Positions 3,262 through 46,529 of a DNA stretch of 48,874 bases are shown here, in pieces. Location: contig CAJXYP010000006.1 in assembly GCA_913063225.1 (NCBI GenBank), positions 69,607-118,480 on the forward strand. The letters run 5' to 3'. This DNA is from an uncultured Cellvibrionales bacterium. Its GTDB lineage: Bacteria > Pseudomonadota > Gammaproteobacteria > Pseudomonadales > GM7GCV1. Below the pieces are notes generated by a model. It saw only the letters and a program-made list of their open reading frames with translations, was not told the DNA's origin and did not search any database. How positions within the stretch are numbered: position 1 is the first letter of the stretch; each line of letters starts with the position of its first letter. Both the position numbers and the translations under genes were made by a program.

Positions 3262-3945
3262 ATGACTGATTTTGAACTGACCGCAAGCAGCCGGGAAGAC
3301 AAAGGGAAAGGTGCGAGCCGCCGCCTTCGTCGTCTAGCTGAACAAGTACCCGCCATTATTTATGGTGGCAAAAAGGAACCAGAATCGATTTCTATGTTTC
3401 ACAAAGACATCGCTCACTCCTTGGCAAATGAAGCTTTTTACTCGCATATTATTTCGGTAACCGTCGACGGCAAAAGCCAAGACGTTATTCTAAAAGATGT
3501 TCAGCGTCACCCTGCCAAGCCGGTAATCATGCACGTTGATTTCCAGCGCGTATCGAAGAACCAAAAACTCACCACGCGCGTTCCACTGCACTTTATCAAC
3601 GAAGATATCTGTGTCGGCGTGAAAACCTCTGGTGGCCTAATCTCTCACAACATAACCGATTTGGAAATCAGCTGTTTACCAGCAAACCTTCCTGCGTTCT
3701 TGGAAGTAGATATGGCTGAAGTAGAGCTAGATGCCACGTTACACATCAGTGATATCAAACTGCCAGAAGGCGTTGAAAGTGTTGCGTTGTCTCACGGCGA
3801 AGAACAGGATCAACCTATCGCATCTATTCACCTACCTAAAGTGGTTGTTGAAGAAGATCTGGACGCTGATGTTAGCGCTGATGGCGAAGATTCTGATGGC
3901 GAAGATTCTGATGGCGAAGATTCTGAAGAAAGCTCAGAGGACTGA
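3262..3945 (+). CDS. rplY: 50S ribosomal protein L25/CTC (long form)
   Basis: This is the bL25 protein, which binds 5S rRNA in the large ribosomal subunit. At 227 residues it is the long CTC/TL5 form, with an N-terminal L25 domain (MTDFELTASSREDKGKGASRR, then VPAIIYGG near residue 33) and a C-terminal TL5-type beta domain (about residues 95-185). The SD sequence GGAG at 3250-3253 is 8 bases before the ATG. The C-terminal tail is very acidic and repetitive (three SDGED units followed by SEESSED), encoded by a 15-base tandem repeat. pth follows 32 bases downstream, the usual order. Confidence 0.95.
   Translation: MTDFELTASSREDKGKGASRRLRRLAEQVPAIIYGGKKEPESISMFHKDIAHSLANEAFYSHIISVTVDGKSQDVILKDVQRHPAKPVIMHVDFQRVSKNQKLTTRVPLHFINEDICVGVKTSGGLISHNITDLEISCLPANLPAFLEVDMAEVELDATLHISDIKLPEGVESVALSHGEEQDQPIASIHLPKVVVEEDLDADVSADGEDSDGEDSDGEDSEESSED
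3880..3924 (+). repeat. 15-bp tandem repeat, three copies, in rplY 3' end
   Basis: The unit GATGGCGAAGATTCT occurs three times in direct succession (3880-3894, 3895-3909, 3910-3924) with no differences. It encodes DGEDS repeats in the acidic tail of L25. Its length is a multiple of three, so copy number can change without breaking the frame. Confidence 0.95.
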
Positions 3946-10862: not shown

Positions 10863-11609
10863 CTATATGTGAATATTTGCCAGCTCTTTGCTAATGGCAG
10901 CGGCAGAGGCTTTTACCAATGAGGACATGGGCCCAACCACAGTTTCTGTAATCCGGCTCGCTGGCCCGCGTAATACAAGAGCAGCTGCGGTATTGCCAAG
11001 CCCATCAAATATAGGGGCCGCAATTGCGGATGTATCTAGGGCAACTTCGCCTACATTATGAGCAAAACCGGTTTTCCGAGCCTCATCTAGTTGCTTTATA
11101 TAGAGCTCGCGATCCTCAACACTCTTGATGGTCAAGGGAGCCAAATTCGAATCTTGAAGGATTTTTTCTATTTGAGCGTCAGTTTTTTGCGCCATAAAAA
11201 CACGCCCGGAAGCGCCTGCATAAATTGGCAATTCCCTACCAACGGGCGCAACAATGCGAAGTTCACGGCCTGGTTCCATCACGTCAATACAAACACGCTG
11301 CCTACCGCGAGGCACAATTAGGCAAATTGTTTCTTGGGTACGATCCAACAATCCTTGAAGGTGCGGCCGACAAATCTTACGAATTTCACTGGGCCAAAAA
11401 TTGTATATGCCAGCCCCCTGAACATAACGCTTGGAATCTGCCTCGTGCCTCACCATATCTGCGTTTGCCAGAGTGTGAAGGAAACGCAGTGTGGTCGCCT
11501 TATCCAGCCCTGTGCCTTGACTGATTTCAGTCAGCCCTATGGGCCGATCACTTTGACATACATACATTAGAACAGATATTGCCCGTTCAACAGAGCGGTT
11601 GGTTTTCAT
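10863..11609 (-). CDS. IclR family transcriptional regulator
   Basis: The product has an N-terminal winged helix-turn-helix (SVERAISVLMYV, GLTEISQGTGLDKATTLRFLHTLANADMV, about residues 5-55) and a C-terminal IclR effector domain (CLIVPRGRQRVCIDVMEPGRELRI, GRELPIYAGASGRVFMA, and AIAAPIFDGLGNTAAALVLRGP). The start is placed at ATG 11609 because AAGGA lies 7 bases upstream; the frame extends to 11636. It diverges from the tctC-tctA operon, the usual position of a local regulator. A long inverted repeat lies in the 130-base divergent region. The effector is probably the compound imported by the Tct system, but it cannot be named. Confidence 0.93.
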   Translation of the reverse strand: MKTNRSVERAISVLMYVCQSDRPIGLTEISQGTGLDKATTLRFLHTLANADMVRHEADSKRYVQGAGIYNFWPSEIRKICRPHLQGLLDRTQETICLIVPRGRQRVCIDVMEPGRELRIVAPVGRELPIYAGASGRVFMAQKTDAQIEKILQDSNLAPLTIKSVEDRELYIKQLDEARKTGFAHNVGEVALDTSAIAAPIFDGLGNTAAALVLRGPASRITETVVGPMSSLVKASAAAISKELANIHI

Positions 11610-11654
11610 TGATAATCCTTCTGATTCAGGAATCAACCATACAAATATTGTTTC

Positions 11655-11682
11655 AACAAGTAAACCATTAGTTTTACTCGTT
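11655..11682. promoter_or_regulatory. Candidate IclR operator (28-bp inverted repeat)
   Basis: The left arm AACAAGTAAACC (11655-11666) and right arm GTTTTACTCGTT (11671-11682) are inverted copies matching at 10 of 12 positions, with ATTA between. The right end overlaps the -35 box of the tctC promoter. The 15-mer TTCAACAAGTAAACC (11652-11666) recurs exactly at the TBDT1 promoter. Confidence 0.7.
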
Positions 11683-12921: not shown

Positions 12922-14949
12922 ATGGTGTTTGACGCCTTAGTCGATAGCTTGGCCCTCATTTTTCAATGGGAGGTAATGTTTTATTTTGCTCTCGGCTGTG
13001 TAATCGGTATTTTACTCGGCGCTGTGCCCGGCATGGGGGGCGCAATAGGCCTGGTCCTTCTGCTGCCCTTTACATTTTCCATGGAGCCCGTCGCCGCCTT
13101 TGCGCTTCTATTAGCCTCTTGGGCATCAACCTCTACTAGTGGAGCCATAACCTCTGTATTGCTCGGTGTGCCGGCAACTGCTGCGTCACAGGCCACGGTG
13201 CTAGATGGCTACCCCATGGCAAAACGCGGTGAAGCCGCGCGAGCTTTAGGCGCGTCCTTCACCGCATCTGCGATTGGCGGATTCTGCGGAGCTCTAACTC
13301 TCGGTCTCGCGCTACCTCTGATCCTTCCCATTATTCTGGCCTTTGAATCTCCCGAACAATTCATGCTCGGCATGCTTGGACTCGCCATGGTGGGGTCCCT
13401 TGCCGGACAGTCTGTTACCAAAGGTATCGTAGCCGCTGCGTTTGGTTTGCTGCTGGCCATGATTGGTCTCCCGGAATCTGCCGGAATCCCACGCTATACC
13501 TTCGATACGCTTTATATGCTGGATAGCCTACCCCTTATTCCGGTATTGCTTGGTTTGTTTGCTCTACCTGAAGTTATGGAACTGGCGATTAAGAACGTAT
13601 CCATTGCACGCTCTGGAAAAGACGAAGATACCAAAAAGGGTCAGATGCAGGGCGTAAGAGATGCCTTTGATAACATCTGGCTGGTAATCCGCTGCAGCGT
13701 TATCGGCACCTATATCGGCATGCTTCCCGGCCTGGGCGCCTCAATCGTTGGCTGGGTAACCTATGCACACGCCAAACAAAGCGTTAAGGACGATTCACAA
13801 TTTGGACAAGGCGATGTTCGCGGGCTACTAGCTCCCGAAGCAGCCAACAATGCATTGCGCGGCGGAGCACTTATTCCAACGCTAACGCTTGGCATACCCG
13901 GAAGCGTGGGAACTGCGATCCTGATGAGCGCACTTATTATGCATGGCCTGCGCCCCGGCCCGAGCATGCTTACTGACAACCTGCCTATCACTTTCAGTTT
14001 TGTTTGGATGATTGCTATGGCTAGCATCCTCGCCACGCTGATCTTACTGAAAACCGTAAAATGGGTAGCCAAGGTTGCCCTATTACCCGGGCACTTAGTG
14101 GTTCCGGGCGTACTATTATTTGTATTCATGGGCGCATGGCTCGGCAATGCCGATCTGGGATCATGGATTACCTGCGTGGCATTTGGCCTTCTCGGGTTCT
14201 TTATGAAGCGCGGTGGCTGGCCACGGCCTCCCGTGATTCTCGCTCTGGTTTTGGGCCCCATTCTCGAACGTACTTTCCAGATCAGTACCAATATTTACGG
14301 TGGGCTGGGCTGGTTAAGTCGACCCATTGTTCTAGTGCTTATTCTGATTATTGTGGTCAGCGTTATTCTGGCTGCCCGCAGCATTGCAAAGAAAAAGAAA
14401 TCTGGAGCACAAGACGCAGGCGAAGGCTCTGAAAAAAGTCCAGCCATATCTCTCCCTCTTTCCCTGCTGCTGCTAATAGCCTTTGTATGGGCTGGATACA
14501 CTGCAACCGCATGGCCTCCCATTGTTAAGCAATTCCCACTGCTTATTTGTATCCCGGGCGCGATACTTGGCGCCTGGGTCGTATTCCAAGACTCTAGACA
14601 TTTACTACAGCTCAAGGCCAGCACGGGGAGCTGGGGGGAGACTTTATCCAAAGCCCGCAAAGACGCCTGGCTGGCCGAAGCCGTGCCTTTCTTCGCCTAT
14701 CTGGCAGCTATGATTGTTCTCTGCTTAATTATCGGACAAAAGCTTGCCATGCCGATATTTATCGGCATCTATTTAGTTCGCTGGGGCGGATATAGCAAAC
14801 GCATAGCTATCGCTTATGCGCTTACCGCCTGGGCAATACTGGTATTTTTCTACGGCCAAATTATGCGCCTTATATTCCACCCTTCACTGGTAGAGCAATG
14901 GACACAATCCTGGTTCCCACGACAATTCCCAGATTGGCTGCTGTTTTAA
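12922..14949 (+). CDS. Tripartite tricarboxylate transporter permease, TctA-TctB fusion
   Basis: The 675-residue protein carries both membrane parts of a TTT transporter. Residues 1 to about 485 are TctA: the two related motifs GAVPGMGGAIGLVLLLPFTF (near 33) and GMLPGLGASIVGWVTYAHAKQ (near 270) form the substrate core, and about ten further helices follow. A charged linker (AKKKKSGAQDAGEGSEKSP, about 487-508) leads to four more helices (LPLSLLLLIAFVWAGYTATAW onward) with the size and topology of TctB. TctA alone is about 500 residues. No separate tctB exists in the operon, which supports the fusion. Substrate unknown; probably an organic acid related to the downstream enzymes. Confidence 0.88.
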   Translation: MVFDALVDSLALIFQWEVMFYFALGCVIGILLGAVPGMGGAIGLVLLLPFTFSMEPVAAFALLLASWASTSTSGAITSVLLGVPATAASQATVLDGYPMAKRGEAARALGASFTASAIGGFCGALTLGLALPLILPIILAFESPEQFMLGMLGLAMVGSLAGQSVTKGIVAAAFGLLLAMIGLPESAGIPRYTFDTLYMLDSLPLIPVLLGLFALPEVMELAIKNVSIARSGKDEDTKKGQMQGVRDAFDNIWLVIRCSVIGTYIGMLPGLGASIVGWVTYAHAKQSVKDDSQFGQGDVRGLLAPEAANNALRGGALIPTLTLGIPGSVGTAILMSALIMHGLRPGPSMLTDNLPITFSFVWMIAMASILATLILLKTVKWVAKVALLPGHLVVPGVLLFVFMGAWLGNADLGSWITCVAFGLLGFFMKRGGWPRPPVILALVLGPILERTFQISTNIYGGLGWLSRPIVLVLILIIVVSVILAARSIAKKKKSGAQDAGEGSEKSPAISLPLSLLLLIAFVWAGYTATAWPPIVKQFPLLICIPGAILGAWVVFQDSRHLLQLKASTGSWGETLSKARKDAWLAEAVPFFAYLAAMIVLCLIIGQKLAMPIFIGIYLVRWGGYSKRIAIAYALTAWAILVFFYGQIMRLIFHPSLVEQWTQSWFPRQFPDWLLF

Positions 14950-23685: not shown

Positions 23686-23714
23686 TTTATAGCACTCGGC
23701 TTACTAGTGTTCAA
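23686..23714 (-). promoter_or_regulatory. Promoter of TBDT1
   Basis: On the - strand, -35 TTGAAC (23714-23709) and -10 TATAAA (23691-23686) are 17 bases apart. The start would be near 23679, about 25 bases before the ATG at 23654. The -35 overlaps the candidate IclR operator, the same geometry as at tctC. Confidence 0.7.
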
Positions 23715-23737
23715 CAAGTAAACCGAATTGTTTCACC
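23710..23737. promoter_or_regulatory. Candidate IclR operator at TBDT1
   Basis: TTCAACAAGTAAACC (23710-23724) is identical to 11652-11666. It is followed by GAATT and GTTTCACC, so GTAAACC...GTTTCAC forms an imperfect inverted repeat. The site abuts the -35 box from the upstream side. Confidence 0.6.
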
Positions 23738-28201: not shown

Positions 28202-29245
28202 CTAGGCTGCGAAAGCGCCCTTCTGTATGCCAGCACCGCTAGGTTGATCGCCACCGCGCACAACATAAGCAATGGATGCCTTGTCGCCATTATTTTTGAA
28301 TTGGCGAGGCAAGCCTTTGGGCACTGTAAGAGTATCGCCAGGTTCCAATAGAAGCTCACCGCTTTGCCATACAAAGCTAAGCTCGCCCTCGTGCATATAC
28401 AGTACTTCTTCTTCCTGACGGGAGTTCATCGCTAGTTCAGCGTTAGACTCGAAATCTAAACGACGGACATTGAATCCGTGATCCCATGTCATTTTGCCTG
28501 GGCCAATTCCTTCCGCTTCATTGGCGGTACCAATAATCGGGCTTTCAGTGACGCCTTGGGATGAGCGACTTAGACCTGAACCGGCAATAGCGTTTTGTTC
28601 TGCGGCGCGACTCACACAGGCGGCCACTTCTTCGCCACTCATCAATCGATGTTGCGCAACCTGATCAGGGGACGTCGGCAACATAGGTTGCTCGTCTTCG
28701 GGAATAACTTCGCCATTTCTTGTATCAACCAAGCGACCACTTTCCAGCAGAACTAAACCGTAGTCCTTAGCTTTATCAAAGACATCTGGAGCCCAAGTCA
28801 CATGACCGGGATCATCGCTACCTAAAACTGCAAATAGGTACCCTTCGTTTTCGCCGACGTTTTCGAAACCACGAAAAACATTTACGGGAATGGTTATGCA
28901 GTCGCCTTTCTCCAAAACGATCGAACCGTCTTCGCCCTTTTCACCTAGATTAAAAGACCAGCTGCCGCTATGAACAATAAATACTTCTTCAGTCTCGTGA
29001 CTATGCTGTGAATTTAAACAACCGGGAGGCTGACGAGCACCACCAATATTGAAGCCATGAGCCTCGGCAATATGCACATATTGATCGGGATGCTCAGCAA
29101 CGCCGGGACCAATAATAGTAAAGTTCTCTTTCTTATCGCTGCCCGGGGTATAGGTATCAACAAAAGCGTTCAGGCAGGGCTTTAGATCGCGATAGCGAAC
29201 TAATCGACGGGTTTCCATCATTTCTGAAGTCCAATTTTTAGGCAT
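28202..29245 (-). CDS. Bicupin protein (dioxygenase/isomerase-like)
   Basis: Two cupin domains are visible. The first (about 60-150) has a full metal motif, PPGCLNSQHSHETEEVFIVHSGSW, with His-x-His and Glu, followed by KGDCITIPVNVFRGFENVG. The second (about 260-340) has RQEEEVLYMHEGELSFVW and LEPGDTLTVPKGLPRQFKNNG; its metal-binding histidines are missing, so only domain 1 should hold a metal. The pattern is like gentisate-dioxygenase or sugar-epimerase relatives, but no precise activity can be assigned. It is the first gene of the cupin-SnoaL-symporter-SnoaL set, and its promoter carries a LacI-type operator. AGGA precedes the ATG at 29245. Confidence 0.75.
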   Translation of the reverse strand: MPKNWTSEMMETRRLVRYRDLKPCLNAFVDTYTPGSDKKENFTIIGPGVAEHPDQYVHIAEAHGFNIGGARQPPGCLNSQHSHETEEVFIVHSGSWSFNLGEKGEDGSIVLEKGDCITIPVNVFRGFENVGENEGYLFAVLGSDDPGHVTWAPDVFDKAKDYGLVLLESGRLVDTRNGEVIPEDEQPMLPTSPDQVAQHRLMSGEEVAACVSRAAEQNAIAGSGLSRSSQGVTESPIIGTANEAEGIGPGKMTWDHGFNVRRLDFESNAELAMNSRQEEEVLYMHEGELSFVWQSGELLLEPGDTLTVPKGLPRQFKNNGDKASIAYVVRGGDQPSGAGIQKGAFAA

Positions 29246-29330: not shown

Positions 29331-29359
29331 AATGTACTTCGAATGCAAAAATTAATCAA
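29331..29359 (-). promoter_or_regulatory. Cupin-operon promoter with LacI-type operator in the spacer
   Basis: On the - strand, -35 TTGATT (29359-29354) and -10 TACATT (29336-29331) are 17 bases apart. The spacer contains TTTTTGCATTCGAAG. The operator reads TTGCATTCGAAGTACA and is centred between 29340 and 29341. The 19-mer TGTACTTCGAATGCAAAAA is identical at the TBDT2 promoter. The predicted leader is about 80 bases. Confidence 0.75.
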
Positions 29360-29411: not shown

Positions 29412-29445
29412 GGTAATTTATTGAATTCGAATTCAATAAATTACC
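29412..29445. promoter_or_regulatory. Perfect 34-bp palindrome, LacI-type operator
   Basis: The 17-base arms are exact reverse complements, from GGTAATTTATTG to CAATAAATTACC, around the core TTGAATTCGAATTCAA. It lies 24 bases before the amidohydrolase start and 88 bp (centre to centre) from the operator in the cupin promoter. It has no T run and sits upstream of genes on both sides, so an operator fits better than a terminator. Confidence 0.85.
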
Positions 29446-31132: not shown

Positions 31133-32278
31133 TTAACCCCATAGTTTCTTTGAGGCTATAGCGGCCCCTTCTGCCATAGCCTGCAGCTTGGCATAGACGA
31201 TGCCTTCATCGACAGCTCCAAATCCTGCAAAGGTTGAAAAACCACAATCCGTGCCAGCGATTACTCGCTCGCGACCGACAATATCGGCAAATTTTTCAAT
31301 CCGCTGAGCCACTAATTTAGGATGCTCAACAAAGTTAGTAGTCGAATCGATTACGCCGGGAACCAAAATTTTGTCTTCGGGAATATCAACATTCGCGAAC
31401 ACTTCCCACTCATGAGCGTGGCGAGGATTAGAAGATTCAAACAACAGTGCCTGTGGCTTGGCTCGCATAGCGATAGGAAGCACTAACTCCATAGGTGCAT
31501 CGTGGTGATGAGGCCCTTCATAATTTCCCCAACATACATGTAGTCGAACTTTGTCCGCCGGCACATTGCGCAAAGCTTCATTCAGCATATCCACATGTAG
31601 ATTCGCCAACTGTTGATAATCCTCATCGGGCCGATCCTTAAATAGCATATGACGACCTAATCCCAGATCCGGTGAATCCAACTGCAAGATAAATCCCGCC
31701 TCTACTATGGCTTCGTACTCGGCTCGCATAGCTTCAGCTAGCGCTTGCAGATAGTCTCCATGATTCCGGTAATGATGGTTCGGCTGGAATAGCGCTATCA
31801 CGCCAGGGGACGCTGCATTCATAAAACTCTCAACCGGGCTATGCGCTTTTGCTGCAGCAGATAAATTGCTCAGATCTTCTTCAAGAGGCTGCATATCCTT
31901 TACGGTAATTTCCGCAACGCAACAGGGCCGTTTGTAGGAAGGAGTACCGCCAGAGCTTGCCTGACGTTTTAGAAACTCGGGGAACTCTTCAAGGTCTGAA
32001 GGCGGGTTTCGATCGCTGTCACCCTCAAAACCGGTAATCCGGTCTTTAATATAGGTAGCGTAGCTAATCTTGCTCATTTCGCCATCACTAACAATATCGA
32101 CGCCCACTTCAACTTGCTTGGCAACTACCTCCATCACCGCATAGGCAATGGTTTGCGATAACTCAGCAGCATCATGCGGCTGCTCATTCTCTTTCGCGAA
32201 AACGCCATCTGTAACGGCCTTTGATCGCGGCAAACTGCCAACATGAGTTGTAAGAATTCTGTCAGTGCTTGTTTTCAT
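31133..32278 (-). CDS. MetE C-terminal-domain protein, zinc-dependent
   Basis: The product (about 381 residues from ATG 32278) covers only the catalytic half of cobalamin-independent methionine synthase (full MetE is about 750). It starts TTHVGSLPRSKAV, and all four zinc ligands are in place: His and Cys in RLHVCWGNY (247 and 249), Glu in LLFESSNPR (281) and Cys in AGTDCGFSTF (345). Such short proteins include epoxyalkane:coenzyme M transferases and uncharacterised relatives in degradation operons. They activate a thiol or related nucleophile on zinc. The upstream hydrolase stop overlaps its start (ATGA), indicating translational coupling. A catabolic role is more likely than methionine synthesis. 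Confidence 0.85.
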   Translation of the reverse strand: MKTSTDRILTTHVGSLPRSKAVTDGVFAKENEQPHDAAELSQTIAYAVMEVVAKQVEVGVDIVSDGEMSKISYATYIKDRITGFEGDSDRNPPSDLEEFPEFLKRQASSGGTPSYKRPCCVAEITVKDMQPLEEDLSNLSAAAKAHSPVESFMNAASPGVIALFQPNHHYRNHGDYLQALAEAMRAEYEAIVEAGFILQLDSPDLGLGRHMLFKDRPDEDYQQLANLHVDMLNEALRNVPADKVRLHVCWGNYEGPHHHDAPMELVLPIAMRAKPQALLFESSNPRHAHEWEVFANVDIPEDKILVPGVIDSTTNFVEHPKLVAQRIEKFADIVGRERVIAGTDCGFSTFAGFGAVDEGIVYAKLQAMAEGAAIASKKLWG

Positions 32279-32997
32279 TTTTGTAACCAACCTAAAAGTA
32301 TTTTGTTAACAGCCTCTGGCTGCTCCATCGTGGATAGATGCCCACAATCATCAATAAGGTACAACTCGGAATCCGGAATCGCCGCGGCCAACTCTTGATG
32401 CAAAGAAGGAGGGCAAAGCTGATCCTCCTTACCGCAAATAATGACCACCGGACGGTTAATACTCCCTAGCGTCGAGCGACTATCAGGTCGATCTCGCAAC
32501 GCGATAGACTGATCGAGGAATACTTCCTTACCCAACCTCAGCCCCATATCCAAAACCTCTTGCAACAATTCAGTATTGTTGCAATGAATCTCCGCCAAAT
32601 AGTTGGGCTTTAATTCATTTCTTAGTACCTCCGCCAACGCGCCGGAAAATACTTCTTTAATCTGTCGATTCCTTACTGCCTTTTTCTCTTCTGTATCGGC
32701 TCGAAAATTTGTATCGAGCAAAGCCATCCGCTCTACCCTTTCTGGTGCTTGTCGCCAAATTTCGAATGCGACTATGGCTCCCATGGATAATCCTGCCAAA
32801 GCGAAGGTCGCCGGTGCCTTTTCCAAAATGCTTTCGGCAATCTCTTGAATTGATTTGAAACCAATCATTGCACAAGGATGAATCTGGCATTGCCCAGATA
32901 GCGCTTCCTTCTGATGCGCCCACTGCATCTCGTCGCACATCATTCCGGGAATAAGCAGCAAATCTGTACTTCGAATGCATTTTGACATAAAAACCAT
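32275..32997 (-). CDS. Alpha/beta hydrolase
   Basis: The 240-residue protein has the alpha/beta-hydrolase fold. LLLIPGMMCDEMQW supplies the oxyanion region, FALAGLSMGAIVAFE the nucleophile elbow (GLSMG), IICGKEDQLCPP the acid, and LIDDCGHLSTMEQP the His. The set is complete. It resembles small cytoplasmic esterases or C-C hydrolases. The start is ATG 32997 or 32988; a TTG lies at 33000. Bases 32965-32979, codons 7-11 from the first ATG, contain a full copy of the island's LacI-type operator. It follows lacI by 37 bases and overlaps the MetE-like gene by 4. Confidence 0.88.
   Translation of the reverse strand: MVFMSKCIRSTDLLLIPGMMCDEMQWAHQKEALSGQCQIHPCAMIGFKSIQEIAESILEKAPATFALAGLSMGAIVAFEIWRQAPERVERMALLDTNFRADTEEKKAVRNRQIKEVFSGALAEVLRNELKPNYLAEIHCNNTELLQEVLDMGLRLGKEVFLDQSIALRDRPDSRSTLGSINRPVVIICGKEDQLCPPSLHQELAAAIPDSELYLIDDCGHLSTMEQPEAVNKILLGWLQK
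32965..32979. promoter_or_regulatory. LacI-type operator copy inside a coding region
   Basis: TGTACTTCGAATGCA here is identical to 15 bases of the operators at 29334-29348 and 46332-46346. It lies just inside the start of the alpha/beta hydrolase gene, downstream of lacI. It could act as a roadblock operator or mark an internal promoter, although no good -35 is seen. Confidence 0.5.
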
Positions 32998-33034
32998 CAA
33001 CCTTTGTATTGCCTAAGCTAAAGGCAGAGGTTTT

Positions 33035-34102
33035 TTAATCTCTTACGGAGTTGCCTTTGCGCAAAACGCCGGAAAAACTGCGTTTTTCAGGTGGGATAAA
33101 TTCGTTTTCTACGCGTTCGAGTAACATGGATACAGCGGCTTCGGCCATGCTTTCAACCGGCTGTTGAATAGTAGTCAAATCAAAGCTTGCCCAACTAGAT
33201 GAACGAACTCCGTCGAATCCAACTACGGAAATATCACCGGGCACATCCAGATCCAGCCGATAACGCGCTTCATCCATGCAGCCGATGGCCATAATATCGT
33301 TTGCGCAAATTAGGGCATCGGGAACCGAGCCGCGCTTTTGAATTACTTTTTGCAGAGCCGCTCCGCCAGAGGCATAGGTGTAGTCCCCAGCCTCTTCGAC
33401 TATATCGGTTATGCCTAATTCGTTCAGTCGACTAATAGCCCCTTGAGTTCGCTGCATACTTACAACGGAATCCTTGGGACCGCCGATAATGGCAAAAGAC
33501 TTGTGTCCGCTTTCCACTAAAAGATTCACCAGCTGACGCTCGCCTTCAACTTGGTCACAGCAAACTGAACTAACGGGAATGTCCTGATATGCGCGGTTAT
33601 AAAATACCACCGGGACGTGGCGACTATCGAACAGAGAAATTTGGTCAGGCGTAAGGTGAGCCGCAGCAACCACGCCATCAACTTGATACTGCCAAAGCTG
33701 ATCAATAATTCGACTTACATCGCTTTCATGATCGATGCTGAACAGGAGTACATGTACTCCCCTTTCGGTAAATCGGGAAGATAGCTCTGAAAGAACTTCG
33801 GGGTAGAAATTAAGATTCGAAACAATCACTCCCACCATATTTGAACGGCGGGTAATTAAGCCCCTGGCAATTGCATTGGGTTGATAGCCAAGTTCCTTGA
33901 CGGACTTCATTACCCGGTCGCGCATTTTCTTGGACACACTAGCGCCGTCTTTAAAACAGCGAGAAACCGCTGACTGAGATACGCCAGCATGACGGGCAAC
34001 ATCATAAGAAGTCATCTGTCGACGACTTGTCATTTGATTTCTGCCTTCGGTTTCTGTCTTAGCTTCTTGCTTATTATTCTTATTGCTAGCCTTTACCGCC
34101 AT
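33035..34102 (-). CDS. LacI family transcriptional regulator
   Basis: The 355-residue protein has a LacI-type helix-turn-helix and hinge ([52 protein letters not shown], about residues 31-82). A periplasmic-binding-protein-like effector domain follows ([71 protein letters not shown]). An N-terminal basic extension of about 24 residues precedes the usual start; ATG 34102 has GAGG 4 bases upstream. It overlaps the hisD-like gene by 17 bases. LacI proteins bind palindromes with a central CG, which matches the seven TTCGAA-centred sites in this window. It is therefore the best candidate for their regulator. Confidence 0.95.
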
Positions 34103-35366
34103 AACGCCTCACGCGAATATCTGCTTGTTCTTTGTGCCCAGCAAAGCCTTCAACCGCACACAATCGCGAACAATATTCGCCAACCATAGCCGATGCCTCT
34201 GGAGTTACCCTTTGGTAGGTAGAAGTCTTAAGAAACTTACCTACCCAAAGGCCGCCAGTGTAACGCGCTGCTTTCTTGGTTGGCAAAGTGTGATTTGTGC
34301 CAATCACTTTATCGCCGTAAGAAACATTGGTCTCAGGTCCCAAAAACAGGGCACCGTAGTTGCTCATATTCTGCAAAAAATACTCGGGGTCCTTAGTCAT
34401 AACCTGAACATGCTCTGAAGCTAAGTCATCGGCTACTTTTACCATCTCTTCGTAGCTATCGCAGAGTATTACCTGGCCATATTCCGCCCAGGCTGCACCC
34501 GCCACATCACCAGTAGAGAGCACTTTCAACTGGCGCTCAACTTCAGCCATAGTGTCTTTTGCCAGCTGCTCTGAATTGGTAAGTAATACTGCAGGAGAGT
34601 TTGGCCCATGCTCTGCTTGCCCAAGTAAATCTGTAGCGCAGAGTTCACCGTCAACGCTGTCATCGGCAATAACCAGTGTTTCTGTCGGTCCAGCAAAAAG
34701 ATCGATACCCACTCGACCAAACAGTTGTCGTTTAGCTTCTGCAACAAAGGCATTTCCCGGTCCAACAATCATATCTACAGGGGCGATGGTTTCAGTACCA
34801 AGGGCCATGGCCCCAACTGCCTGGACGCCGCCCATGCAATAAATCTCGTCGGCACCAGCCATATCCATAGCAACAACAATTGCCGGATGAGGCTCACCAT
34901 TGAAAGGGGGGGCACAAGCTATAACGCGCTTAACTCCTGCAACCTTCGCGGTTACTACGCTCATATGAGCGGAAGCTACCAAAGGATATTTTCCACCTGG
35001 TACATAACAACCAACGCTATTCATCGGGATGTGCTTATGACCAAGAACCACTCCGGGAAGGGTCTCTTCCTCCACGTCCAACATCGAGTTGCGCTGAATA
35101 CGAGCAAAGTTGCCCACCTGCTCTTGAGCAAACTTAATATCGTCAATTACCTGTTGATCAAGCTCCTTATAGCAACCGTCAATTTCTTCCTGGCTAAGGC
35201 GAAAAGAATCCGGCGACCATTTATCGAATTGTTCTGAGTACTCACGTACAGCTGAGTCACCGCTGGTTTCAATATTTTTTAGAATACCCTCAACAATTGC
35301 ACGTACCTTTTGATCTTGCGTTTCCGCAGCTTCAACTGAAATACCATCCTTCAGATAGATAGCCAT
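34086..35366 (-). CDS. Histidinol-dehydrogenase-family enzyme, HpsN-like
   Basis: The 426-residue protein has all catalytic parts of the HisD fold: zinc ligands Gln250 and His253 (LLGQAEHGP), Asp352 ([17 protein letters not shown]) and His411 ([13 protein letters not shown]), plus the catalytic pair Glu318-His319 (LASEHVQVM). By eye it is much closer to HpsN, the NAD-dependent dehydrogenase of (R)-2,3-dihydroxypropane-1-sulfonate (MAIYLKDG start, [38 protein letters not shown]), than to biosynthetic HisD. No his genes are nearby. It should oxidise a primary alcohol to a carboxylate in two NAD steps. No sulfolactate lyase is present, so the substrate may be a different polyol. It is the first gene of its operon. 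Confidence 0.88.
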
Positions 35367-35418
35367 GGGTGATTTTCTCCGGAGATTATTTTGCGTAGGT
35401 AGGTATGCTAATAATAAA

Positions 35419-35432
35419 TGACTTCGAATGCA
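35419..35432. promoter_or_regulatory. LacI-type operator upstream of the hisD-like gene
   Basis: On the - strand it reads TTGCATTCGAAGTCAT, sharing TTGCATTCGAAGT with the operators at the cupin and TBDT2 promoters. The centre lies between 35425 and 35426, about 60 bases before the hisD-like ATG. Promoter boxes here are less clear. Confidence 0.7.
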
Positions 35433-35575
35433 ATATATTAATTCTCGTCACTTTCTTATTCTGGACGTTCGAAAATATTCTTTATTTTCAGGGGTCAGCG
35501 CTCACAATGCGAAAGCTTAACTCAACGGCTTTCAACTCAATTCCGGGACGACAAAATCTCAAATACTTACAGCTT

Positions 35576-35597
35576 TTATTGACTTCGAAGTCAATAA
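35576..35597. promoter_or_regulatory. Perfect 22-bp palindrome, LacI-type operator
   Basis: TTATTGACTTC and its exact reverse complement GAAGTCAATAA meet at a central CG. The site ends 15 bases before the lipoprotein hydrolase ATG, just before its GGAG, and lies 161 bp (centre to centre) from the operator near the hisD-like gene. Confidence 0.85.
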
Positions 35598-35612
35598 GTG
35601 GAGAATTGGCGC

Positions 35613-37115
35613 ATGACAATATATAGGCCAACGCAGAGCGTCATTAATAAGCAGTCGAAACCCTTGGCTCTGCTGCTTCAAGCGCTCTGCATACTGGTGC
35701 TGATTTCTTGCGAAAACACGGTTACTAGTGATGCATGTATCGATGAAAGCCTCTGTATCGACTCTCTCGATAATCTAAGTATCGAGGCTCTACGCTCTCG
35801 AACCTACGACACTACCATTCTGGTTGCTCAACAACTTGGCAGCCCGAACCAACCAACCTCCTACTCAGATTATTTCAGTAGCGATGGAACTGCCCCCTAC
35901 CCGAGCTACATGATCAGTTACGATTCGGACGGCCTAAATAATTATGCGCGCATCGATATTCCGGTTAGCTCCGCGCCTGAGGCCGGCTTCCCTGTTTTGG
36001 TATTTGCTCACGGATGGGTTGGAATCGAAGGCGCACCCTATTACAACTTTGGTTACGAGCCAGAATCTTTCTATGGCGAATTGGTAGATACCTATGTCGA
36101 TGCTGGCTATTTGGTAATCACACCCGGCTACCGTGGCCATGGAACTATCGATAACCGTCCCGCGGGTGGAATCGAATATATGCAGGCTTGGGACAACGGC
36201 AGTTATTTAATGCCAACCTTCTATGCCATTGATCTGCTAAACCTGATCGAAGGTCTTGATCAAATCAGCGCCCTTGATTGGAAAGACCCACTTCAAAATC
36301 AGGTGCAGCTGAACCTCGGCTCTATTAATTTGCTTGCCCACTCCCAAGGCGGCGATGTCGCACTAACCGCACTAGCAATCTCCGGGAAAGGCAGCAGTAT
36401 CAAACACCCCTTCTCCGCCGCCTCTATCTGGTCCGGCAATATTCCCGATCGCTTTACCCAAGCCAATACCTTTGGTGCCATGGCCTCTAGCCTACAAGCA
36501 TTTATGTCTGGCGATGGCAGCTGGACCGGAAGCGCCCTAGGACAAGATGGAAGCCTTAATCCAGATTTTATATTTGCTTGGCCGGCGGACTGGATAGGCA
36601 CTCTTGATACCAGCTCTGAAGACTGGACTTGGCAAATCGAGCAATGGGACTCAGCAAGCGTTGAGGCAGCTACCGCGGGAAAATACCAAGAGATGTACAA
36701 CACATTAAACAGCCTTGTGAGAGATACAGATTCAGCGGCCTTTGAGATCGGTCGCACCGAGACCGGCAAGCTACAAATTACTCATTCCCAAGAAATAGTT
36801 AAAGCAATGAACGCCATTGGTGGTTTCGGCGCGGAGCGGTATCTAAGCGAACCACTAGCTCTACATTTTTCGGACCGTGATTATTACTCATTTCCCGCAT
36901 GGAATAAGGGGCTTTCCGAACGCGTGAATAATATTGGCGGTCAGAGCTATAGTTTCGAATATCCGGGTAATACTCATTCCTTGAAACGCAGCAGCCACCT
37001 ATGGTTTTCCCCAACCGGAACCGAAGATGGGTACAAACAAGCAATCCAACGGGACCTATTGCTATTTTCTGGACAAGACCCCAATTTAGAAGCTACTAAA
37101 TCCATATTGCCGTGA
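35613..37115 (+). CDS. Lipoprotein alpha/beta hydrolase (esterase/lipase-like)
   Basis: The product has a lipoprotein signal (ALLLQALCILVLISC, Cys about residue 33) and should be membrane-anchored and exported. The hydrolase core has VLVFAHGWVGIEG (oxyanion site), INLLAHSQGGDVALTAL (nucleophile Ser in HSQGG), LALHFSDRDYYSFPAW (likely Asp) and YPGNTHSLKRSS (likely His). At about 500 residues it is larger than simple esterases, with a middle insertion. The open frame begins with GTG 35598, but ATG 35613, with GGAG at 35600-35603, gives a cleaner signal. It is the first gene of the + strand set and is preceded by a LacI-type palindrome. It probably cleaves an ester in the envelope before uptake. 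Confidence 0.82.
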   Translation: MTIYRPTQSVINKQSKPLALLLQALCILVLISCENTVTSDACIDESLCIDSLDNLSIEALRSRTYDTTILVAQQLGSPNQPTSYSDYFSSDGTAPYPSYMISYDSDGLNNYARIDIPVSSAPEAGFPVLVFAHGWVGIEGAPYYNFGYEPESFYGELVDTYVDAGYLVITPGYRGHGTIDNRPAGGIEYMQAWDNGSYLMPTFYAIDLLNLIEGLDQISALDWKDPLQNQVQLNLGSINLLAHSQGGDVALTALAISGKGSSIKHPFSAASIWSGNIPDRFTQANTFGAMASSLQAFMSGDGSWTGSALGQDGSLNPDFIFAWPADWIGTLDTSSEDWTWQIEQWDSASVEAATAGKYQEMYNTLNSLVRDTDSAAFEIGRTETGKLQITHSQEIVKAMNAIGGFGAERYLSEPLALHFSDRDYYSFPAWNKGLSERVNNIGGQSYSFEYPGNTHSLKRSSHLWFSPTGTEDGYKQAIQRDLLLFSGQDPNLEATKSILP

Positions 37116-43868: not shown

Positions 43869-46241
43869 TTAGAACTTATATGCGGCCCGAATACCCCATG
43901 TACGTGGATTGTTGTAGTCAACAACCGCTCGCGATCCACTAAAGGTATCTGAACCCGTAATAACATCTTCCTCAGAAGCGTTATTGATATAGGCCTGAAC
44001 TGTGAAGTCATCAGATGGTGAATACCAAGTAGCGCTGATATCCGTAGTGGTATAGGCATCTTGAGTCGACCAGAAATATGGAACCGAAGTGGTCTGGTAA
44101 GAATCAGAGTGGTAGAAGAATATACCTGGAACAACATGCCCCATATCTCCCAGATCTATCTGATAGGTGATTCCAAGATTAGCCGTCATATCGGGTGAGT
44201 ATGGCGTATCCATGCCCTCGAGAAGAAAGAACTCGGTAGTGCCAGCGATTATGGTCGGCAGCCCACCATTCTCAGTGTATTCATTTTTCTTGGTAAATTC
44301 AGTGAATTCCGAGAAGTCGAATGCTACGCCGGCTCTGATTTTTAACTCATCAGTTGCCTGCCAGTTCAGCTCTGCTTCCACACCTCGAGACTCCATCCCG
44401 CCACCTTGAACCGATCGAGATATAAAAACCCCGACATTGTTGGCCTCCAAAAATGAAGTAGATAAGCCCGTGTACTCAACTGAGTATGCCGTAGCGTTAA
44501 GCGTCATGGCACCATCCATCAAAGTACTTTTAACACCAATTTCAAGGGCATCAGTAGTCGATGGATCAAGTAGAGTGCCTGTTGTACCGTCCACTCCACC
44601 AGTAATAAAGCCAGTAGCTGATGAAGCAAATACCATCAGGTCTTCATTTATATGATATTGAGCAGCAATACGGTAGTCAGACTGAGAATCATCACCCTTC
44701 TCAGAGAAAGCTGATTGCCAATGGAAGTTAGGCGTGGTTTGGTAACCAGGTAGCGCGTCACCTTGAGTGGCCAGATCGACAAAGAGGCTTGTTGAGCTGC
44801 GCTCGTCTTCGCTATATCGCAATCCACCAGTTATAGTCAGCTGATCAGTAAGATCGTATTCCGCCTGACCATATACTGCCTGAGAATCTACGGAAGACTC
44901 ACTGCCGTGAAGCCAATGTGCCCAAACATCAATTTGGGTAGGATTTGCAAAGGAAGTATCACCCCAAACAAAGCCGTAGTTGGAATCTTCAGAGAAAGTG
45001 TAGTAACCCAGCGTCCAACGCAGAGCACCACCAGTTAGTGAAGTTAGTTGGATATCAGCCTGAGTCGATTCAGACCCATATTGCTCACCAGAAACCCTAC
45101 CAAGATCAGTCAAGGCTAGAGTACCGCCAGCAACAACCCCTTCGGCAGAACCTCGAATAGAGAAGTCACCATCAGACAAGCCAAAGCCTGTAAAATCGGA
45201 ATAGCCAATATTTGCTTTCAGCTCGGCAAAACCTAAATCCGCTGTGAATAGTCCGGAGAATGAATCTTCTGACAGTCCTCTGGTAGGAGTGAAATCAAAG
45301 GCCATTGTACGTAAATCGTCCGTAAGGTCGGCACTTGGATCCTGCCCAATGAAGCCGTTTAAGTCTTTACCGCCTTCCCAACCAGCTCGAAAGCCAGATC
45401 GCTGATCCAAGAAGCCATTAATGCCATCTGTGGTTTGGCTAGTCGCGTTAACCGGAATGCCAATTACTTTATGACCGAAATCAGCTGCACCATTGCCATT
45501 GTCGCGCCAGGTTGCGGCAGTAAGGTTCAAATTCATGCTATCGCTAATATCAAAGTTTAGCTGCGCACGAAGATATCTAGTATCAGCGTCCTTAAGACCA
45601 CCTTCACTATTGAATATATTTTCTACATAGGGGTCACGCTGGGTATCAGTACCAGAAATACGCAAAGCAACCGTGTCGCCAAGAGGTAGGTTTACGAAAC
45701 CTTCCACTTTTCGCATGCTGTATTCGCCAACGCTGATAGCAGCGCCGTAATCCAGACCGTCATTATCTGGCTTTTTAGTGATTACATTGACCAAGCCGCC
45801 AAGCGTGTTACGACCAAATAGTGTGCCCTGAGGACCGCGCAAAATCTCTACTCGCTCTACATCGATAAAGCTCGCCAGACCCTGAGAAGTTCTTGGGCGA
45901 TACAAGCCATCGTTATATACCGGAACAGCTACATCGCTAGTACCAGCTGAACCGGCACCACGAATGATAATACTGGGGTTACTACCTACGTAACGAATCT
46001 TGAGGCCTGGAACCGCTTTTTCTATATCTGGAAGAGATTCAATGCCCATGGCAGTCAAATCTGCACCGGTAACCGCGGTTACTGAAAGTGGAACATCCTG
46101 CAGACTTACATTGCGCTTAGTTGCCGTTACCAGAATTTCTTCTAGAACCGGACCGGACTGAGCCACTACACCACCGCTTGCAATAACTGCACTGATGGAT
46201 GACGCCAGAAGTGTTTTCTTAGCTAAAAACTTGGAACCCAT
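43869..46241 (-). CDS. TonB-dependent outer-membrane receptor (TBDT2)
   Basis: The 790-residue protein has a signal peptide (TLLASSISAVIASGGVVAQ), a plug domain (LEEILVTATKRNVSLQDVPLSVTAVTG, then PSIIIRGAGSAGTSDVAVPVYNDGLYRPRTSQGLASFIDVERVEILRGPQGTLFGRNTLGGLVNVITKKP) and a beta-barrel ending NPRTWGIRAAYKF with the terminal Phe. Length and motifs are typical of receptors for organic nutrients. Its promoter carries an exact 19-base copy of the cupin-promoter operator region, and a second operator lies 183 bp upstream. It is therefore probably the outer-membrane entry route for the substrate of the LacI island. It is transcribed alone, with its own terminator. Confidence 0.94.
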   Translation of the reverse strand: MGSKFLAKKTLLASSISAVIASGGVVAQSGPVLEEILVTATKRNVSLQDVPLSVTAVTGADLTAMGIESLPDIEKAVPGLKIRYVGSNPSIIIRGAGSAGTSDVAVPVYNDGLYRPRTSQGLASFIDVERVEILRGPQGTLFGRNTLGGLVNVITKKPDNDGLDYGAAISVGEYSMRKVEGFVNLPLGDTVALRISGTDTQRDPYVENIFNSEGGLKDADTRYLRAQLNFDISDSMNLNLTAATWRDNGNGAADFGHKVIGIPVNATSQTTDGINGFLDQRSGFRAGWEGGKDLNGFIGQDPSADLTDDLRTMAFDFTPTRGLSEDSFSGLFTADLGFAELKANIGYSDFTGFGLSDGDFSIRGSAEGVVAGGTLALTDLGRVSGEQYGSESTQADIQLTSLTGGALRWTLGYYTFSEDSNYGFVWGDTSFANPTQIDVWAHWLHGSESSVDSQAVYGQAEYDLTDQLTITGGLRYSEDERSSTSLFVDLATQGDALPGYQTTPNFHWQSAFSEKGDDSQSDYRIAAQYHINEDLMVFASSATGFITGGVDGTTGTLLDPSTTDALEIGVKSTLMDGAMTLNATAYSVEYTGLSTSFLEANNVGVFISRSVQGGGMESRGVEAELNWQATDELKIRAGVAFDFSEFTEFTKKNEYTENGGLPTIIAGTTEFFLLEGMDTPYSPDMTANLGITYQIDLGDMGHVVPGIFFYHSDSYQTTSVPYFWSTQDAYTTTDISATWYSPSDDFTVQAYINNASEEDVITGSDTFSGSRAVVDYNNPRTWGIRAAYKF

Positions 46242-46328: not shown

Positions 46329-46356
46329 TTTGTACTTCGAATGCAAAAAAAGTCAA
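46329..46356 (-). promoter_or_regulatory. TBDT2 promoter with LacI-type operator in the spacer
   Basis: On the - strand, -35 TTGACT (46356-46351) and -10 TACAAA (46334-46329) are 16 bases apart. The operator TTGCATTCGAAGTACA fills most of the spacer, centred between 46338 and 46339. The layout copies that of the cupin promoter, including a leader of about 80 bases. Repressor binding should block RNA polymerase directly. Confidence 0.78.
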
Positions 46357-46513: not shown

Positions 46514-46529
46514 TTGACTTCGAAGTTAA
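46514..46529. promoter_or_regulatory. Auxiliary LacI-type operator upstream of TBDT2
   Basis: TTGACTTCGAAGTTAA differs from a perfect palindrome by one base pair. It is 183 bp upstream of the promoter operator. No divergent gene starts here, so the site probably serves TBDT2 itself, possibly through a DNA loop. Confidence 0.75.

Follow-up and report, generated by a model that had tools for sequence, protein, structure and literature searches.

The window, by which we mean the whole stretch of 48,874 nucleotides analysed here, contains genes for a double-cupin protein, a LacI-family regulator with adjoining enzyme genes and a TonB-dependent outer-membrane receptor (TBDT2), together with a family of short palindromic sites. 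The original prediction concerned two of these sites, in front of the cupin gene and TBDT2. A search for TTCGAA-core sites with at most five mismatches to TTGACTTCGAAGTCAA returned seven in the window, the TTCGAA cores starting at 29338 and 46336 for the two sites of the original prediction and at 29426, 32970, 35423, 35584 and 46519 for five further ones. The features of the locus are as follows.

28202-29245, minus strand: double-cupin protein, whose gene is the first to follow the cupin promoter
29331-29336, minus strand: TACATT, the proposed cupin -10, whose TACA also belongs to the operator; the same hexamer stands at several relatives' sites
29333-29351, minus strand: operator at the cupin promoter, repeat copy 1, consisting of TTGCATTCGAAGTACA (29333-29348) plus flank
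29354-29359, minus strand: TTGATT, the proposed cupin -35, with a spacer of 17
29421-29436, no strand assigned: second cupin-side operator, the symmetric TTGAATTCGAATTCAA, 88 bp from the first
32275-33000, minus strand: alpha/beta hydrolase with intragenic operator, the gene after lacI, likely start ATG 32988
32965-32980, minus strand: operator ATGCATTCGAAGTACA inside the coding region of the alpha/beta hydrolase, among its first codons (CIRST)
33035-34102, minus strand: LacI-family regulator with the helix VSQSAVSR, proposed repressor for all seven operators
34086-35366, minus strand: histidinol-dehydrogenase-family enzyme (hisD), just before lacI on the same strand
35405-35410, minus strand: proposed -10 of hisD-lacI, TAGCAT, spacer 17
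35418-35433, minus strand: operator at the hisD-lacI promoter, TTGCATTCGAAGTCAT, 62 bases before hisD, which precedes lacI
35428-35433, minus strand: proposed -35 of hisD-lacI, TTGCAT, formed by the operator's left half
35579-35594, no strand assigned: perfect palindrome TTGACTTCGAAGTCAA, directly before ORF 35598-37115 (weak alpha/beta-hydrolase match)
43869-46241, minus strand: TBDT2, TonB-dependent outer-membrane receptor
46329-46334, minus strand: proposed -10 of TBDT2, TACAAA, read from the sequence
46331-46349, minus strand: operator at the TBDT2 promoter, repeat copy 2, with the 19-base identity
46351-46356, minus strand: proposed -35 of TBDT2, TTGACT, spacer 16
46514-46529, no strand assigned: TTGACTTCGAAGTTAA, outer TBDT2 operator, 183 bp upstream of the near one

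As predicted, a 19-base stretch is identical at the two loci: TGTACTTCGAATGCAAAAA occurs at 29333-29351 and 46331-46349 with 100% identity, and apart from one tandem repeat the window contains no other exact 19-base direct repeat. The tandem exception, at 3878-3926, consists of three copies of 19 bases spaced 15 bases apart and lies where ORF 3262-3945 encodes its acidic C-terminus. In dinucleotide shuffles of the window, any exact 19-base repeat, whether direct or inverted, arose in 3 of 60. Read on the minus strand, TTGCATTCGAAGTAC is exact at both promoters, and the cupin and TBDT2 sites are the only exact matches of the 18-base form TTTTGCATTCGAAGTACA in the genome, which comprises 2,255,492 bases (2.26 Mb) and is 96.8% complete. 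The predicted common architecture, with a TTGAYT -35, the operator in the spacer, a -10 beginning with TACA and leaders of about 80 bases, was likewise recovered at both promoters, the predicted starts lying at around 29324 (cupin) and 46322 (TBDT2) and the ATGs at 29245 and 46241. Compared with the sigma-70 consensus, both -10 hexamers fit at 4/6 positions and the -35 hexamers at 4/6 (cupin, TTGATT) and 5/6 (TBDT2, TTGACT), which gives summed fits of 8/12 and 9/12, respectively.

The operator family is an even palindrome with a central CG, of which the cupin and TBDT2 copies are themselves asymmetric. Near and outer operators were found upstream of cupin, hisD and TBDT2, separated by 88, 161 and 183 bp, respectively. 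TTGAATTCGAATTCAA is the core of a perfect 34-base palindrome at 29412-29445 (arms of 17, gap 0); this palindrome may also form a hairpin or cruciform. Across the 2.26 Mb genome, 3 places match TTGACTTCGAAGTCAA with no more than two mismatches, all of them within this locus, while at most three mismatches gave 14 places versus 13 for the reversed control, so that the weaker genome matches are mostly due to chance. When the upstream regions of TBDT homologues were checked, no LacI operator was found upstream of TBDT1 of the window. A 15-base repeat, TTCAACAAGTAAACC, lies at 11652-11666, just upstream of an IclR-type gene, and at 23710-23724, where the TBDT1 frame begins, and the two genes are on the minus strand; given that TBDT1 has no LacI operator, this repeat might be a second regulatory site.

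An operator stands before the unit that holds lacI, as in autoregulation. At this promoter the operator overlaps the proposed -35, and of 11 hisD loci inspected, all 10 with a site have TANNNT exactly 17 bases after the operator's TTGCAT. The intragenic site falls in the sequence encoding the hydrolase N-terminus, which reads MSKCIRST in the window, MVDCIRST in L020, MPECIRST in L116 and MAECIRST in L117; the other eight hydrolases inspected contain no CIRST. In these four genes TGCATTCGAAGTACA is the same at 15 of 15 bases, and this base-for-base identity points to selection on the intragenic operator as DNA. Candidate roles for it are those of a roadblock or an auxiliary site, either of which it may fulfil.

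The putative repressor at 33035-34102 contains a LacI-type helix-turn-helix (PF00356, 52.5 bits) and a periplasmic-binding-protein-like effector domain (PF13377, 90.7 bits), and is the only PF00356 match in the genome. In a sample of 390 genomes of the order, taken from a larger group, relatives of this LacI at E<=1e-70 were found in 13, which belong to 9 genera, and exact TTGCATTCGAAGTMMA was present in 12. The exact motif occurred in 11 of the 13 genomes with lacI versus 1 of the 377 others (Fisher 1.4e-18, the genomes being related and not independent samples), and 35 of its 36 sites fall in genomes with lacI. The two genomes with the gene and without the exact motif are G078, which has the close form TTGCATTCGAAGTACG before its cupin, and G104, whose LacI is 41% identical and which has TTGCATTCGTAGTACA near lacI; G327 has one copy of the motif without the gene. 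In four other genomes of the window's own family, neither the LacI nor the exact motif was found, meaning that the pathway is patchily distributed. No good site was found in the locus of L022, whose LacI is 76% identical over residues 39-354, and L021, L024 and L025 contain altered palindromes only and no exact motif. These four loci (LacI 54-76% identical) were left out of the target-gene counts, and we did not regard as operators the TTCGAA matches that L022 and L024 contain with 4 and 5 mismatches. L020 and contig C48 of G254 are apparently one record, having the same LacI match, and were counted once. The cluster of L020 also encodes a second LacI paralogue (13725-14639), 41% identical and with the same VSQSAVSR helix; the two repressors may share operators there.

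In the relatives, the operator lies before the same kinds of gene. In 9 of 12 genomes the cupin gene is preceded by the form TTGCATTCGAAGTAC(A/G), whose TTCGAA is 39-98 bases upstream of the start, and an operator lies upstream of hisD in 10 of 11 loci, the miss being G078; the loci behind these two counts were fetched around lacI, the G050 cupin excepted. Two of the remaining cupins (G050 and L023) stand behind a TBDT that has operators upstream, and in G261 no operator was found before the cupin. In L161 and L023 the TBDT and cupin genes are adjacent on one strand, with operators before the TBDT. For TBDT homologues, an operator of some form lies at most 420 bases upstream in 11 of 13 cases and an asymmetric operator at 75-144 bases in 9 of 13, counts that lean upward since ten loci were fetched because the motif was present; one G107 receptor among these cases has no operator upstream. 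The nearest counterparts of the window's TBDT2 in this set, L162 (61%), L157 (48%) and L158 (46%), each have TTGACT, 16 bases and TACA. The observation that the operator precedes cupin and TBDT homologues in relatives, and tracks one LacI gene over the 390 genomes, supports the predicted tie between the outer-membrane receptor and the intracellular pathway. Paired operators in the relatives are 81-215 bp apart, with 89-92 bp at hisD of five relatives compared with 161 bp at the window's hisD. Tandem operators precede the TBDT in L156 (6694 and 6715, 21 bp apart) and L163 (6394 and 6427, 33 bp apart). Looping at a fixed helical phase was considered and rejected: the window pairs at 88, 161 and 183 bp looked in phase, but relatives have pairs at 165, 200 and 215 bp.

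The SQSAVS helix was present in 11 of 80 LacI loci, some of them orthologues of the window's LacI. Allowing up to two mismatches anywhere in the locus, TTGCATNCGNATGCAA was detected in 8 of the 11 SQSAVS loci versus 6 of 68 loci with other helices, a comparison from which L024 was dropped because its DNA-binding domain is missing at a contig end; the reversed control at the same threshold matched in 1 of 11 SQSAVS loci and 2 of 69 others. The SQSAVS loci without TTGCATNCGNATGCAA are L022, L027 and L032, and among those less than 45% identical, L026, L028, L030 and L031 have a match and L027 and L032 have none. Relatives with the same helix thus tend to have the same half-site, which ties the operator to LacI beyond gene neighbourhood and suggests a recognition rule by which LacI proteins with the VSQSAVSR helix read TTGCATNCGNATGCAA. 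Such a rule would be useful for locating the regulons of VSQSAVSR LacI proteins elsewhere. In passages of a paper on the recognition code (PMC2978694), no information on the VSQSAVSR helix was found.

The site table holds 63 sites with distinct context, the lowest scorers of which are probably chance matches. A -35 matching at least 5 of 6 positions stands 16-18 bases before TACA in 13 of 29 distinct asymmetric sites, compared with 1.8% in single-base shuffles (binomial 8e-16, relatedness ignored), and in the other site orientations such a -35 is in register for 7 of 102. However, when 18 cupin and TBDT promoters were scanned, the register with the -10 at TACA was best or tied best in 9, and the cupins of G013, G384 and G045 have no match in this register and fit others. 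The claim that the operator's last bases form part of the -10 is therefore backed by the recurrent -35 at 16-18 bases, but the TACA register is not universal. A simple promoter scan showed no enrichment in two window regions (2 found versus 1.0 in shuffles and 3 versus 2.0); it did not list the cupin pair TTGATT/TACATT, and at TBDT2 it listed the -35 TTGACT with another -10, CAAAAT at 18 bases. Four intragenic sites also contain the GTACA half, with a best -35 of 3/6, so that the -10 cannot be the sole cause of the operator's asymmetry. If the hisD promoters are included, operator and promoter appear to overlap in two registers that recur, one with the -10 and one with the -35. The sites, their conservation, their tie to lacI and their register with the hexamers can be read directly from the DNA.

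It is highly likely, in our judgement, that the cupin and TBDT2 sites are operators of one LacI-family repressor, the protein at 33035-34102, which blocks both promoters until an inducer binds, and the receptor and the pathway are very probably co-repressed by it. As long as inducer is absent, TTGCATTCGAAGTACA within the promoter would be occupied by a repressor dimer lying over the spacer and the first bases of the -10, so that RNA polymerase would be blocked at the cupin operon as well as at TBDT2. The repressor would also keep its own unit, hisD-lacI, switched off, in that case through occupation of the -35. Binding of a pathway metabolite to the repressor would then bring all units on together, and such joint derepression would induce outer-membrane uptake and intracellular breakdown as one. 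The asymmetry of the operator, with a TGCA half and a GTACA half, perhaps exists because the right half doubles as the -10 (TACAWW). From the arrangement of the sites we infer binding by the protein, repression rather than activation, the inducer and the transcription starts.

In the E. coli lac system, the LacI operator lies at the promoter and is accompanied by auxiliary operators, one of them inside the first structural gene. The present locus likewise has a LacI-type operator at the promoter and auxiliary operators, one of which is intragenic, but unlike in E. coli lac the auxiliary spacing varies and it is the gene following lacI that contains the intragenic site. A further difference concerns the C-terminal tetramer helix of E. 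coli LacI, taken in its generally known extent: the window's protein ends 20 residues past the stretch aligned to E. coli LacI 3-312, leaving no room for this helix. A survey of more than 1300 LacI-family regulators and their local regulons, which also names the lacZ internal site, describes sites mostly 30-140 bp before the start codon, spacing peaks for tandem sites at 22 and 32 bp, and less than 1% of sites inside coding regions (PMC4052901). As far as that description goes, the local regulons share with the present one the even palindrome with central CG, the site position, autoregulation and tandem sites, the latter being 21 and 33 bp apart in two relatives and thus near the two peaks; unlike in the survey, the target pathway here was not recognised as a sugar pathway and one site is intragenic. 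By its description, the NagR regulon of gammaproteobacteria is also similar, with predicted LacI-family control of TonB-dependent receptors and a catabolic gene, but it serves the N-acetylglucosamine pathway, unlike the regulon here (PMC5343134). Hence what we describe is a new LacI-family regulon with features of a kind already well described, and the proposed repressor switch is a well supported yet ordinary kind of gene control.

Several other explanations deserve consideration. Transcription could start elsewhere although the sites are operators of a LacI regulon, with the cupin gene being read from TTGTCA-16-TATAGT and the repressor, bound just upstream, acting by roadblock, by looping with the second palindrome or by activation. 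This pair, at 29330-29303 just downstream of the cupin operator, matches the consensus at 10/12 positions and thus better than TTGATT/TACATT, TBDT2 also fits TTGACT-18-CAAAAT, and three promoters have a second operator further upstream, at 88, 161 and 183 bp. We nevertheless regard such an arrangement as unlikely: in the other eight cupin promoters TTGTCA/TATAGT is not among the best four matches of each, what does recur is a -35 located 16-18 bases upstream of TACA, the distance between paired operators varies by locus (81-215 bp) with tandem pairs at 21 and 33 bp, and the LacI protein is too short for a C-terminal tetramer helix.

That a different regulator reads the repeat, such as the IclR-type protein at 10863-11636 or a regulator encoded outside the window, appears very improbable; another regulator does exist in the window and the motif is not in every LacI relative, but an even palindrome with central CG is described as typical of the LacI family (PMC4052901), the LacI gene is the sole one in the genome and co-occurs with the motif, and the link between helix and motif extends to distant relatives. 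Least credible of all, and already contradicted by conservation, is a 19-base identity arising by chance or recent duplication without regulatory meaning, since other genera have the same sites, with differing flanks, at corresponding types of gene; the 3 of 60 shuffles with some exact 19-base repeat are what speaks for it. Repression of both promoters by the one LacI-type protein is thus the reading we prefer, and it connects specific outer-membrane receptors, through a co-regulation that is clean and testable, with a catabolic pathway yet to be characterised, which gives a handle on which receptor imports the substrate.

The proteins of this pathway are the double cupin, a dehydrogenase resembling sulfopropanediol 3-dehydrogenase, an SDR, a MetE-like protein, an HpcH-type aldolase, a lactonase-like amidohydrolase and many SnoaL-like proteins. 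The nearest solved relatives of the HisD-type enzyme are sulfopropanediol 3-dehydrogenases, a likeness that may serve as a substrate clue and is a lead only. At E<=0.001, the MetE-like protein has one solved relative and the cupin none. Literature searches by gene content found no paper naming the pathway, and six literal motif strings were absent from the papers covered. We tentatively raise the possibility, one that we would not yet bet on, that the regulon marks an undescribed TonB-receptor-fed catabolic pathway in which the operator is used in three ways, as a repressor site with the -10, as a repressor site with the -35 and as five codons (CIRST) that start the hydrolase gene. In three relatives, one type of protein is encoded beside an operator of this family (L163 9416-10819, L164 7431-8831 and L165 6136-7536). 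By its sequence this protein resembles L-serine dehydratase, and its neighbours in L163 resemble glycine-cleavage proteins, which is a hint towards the products of the pathway.
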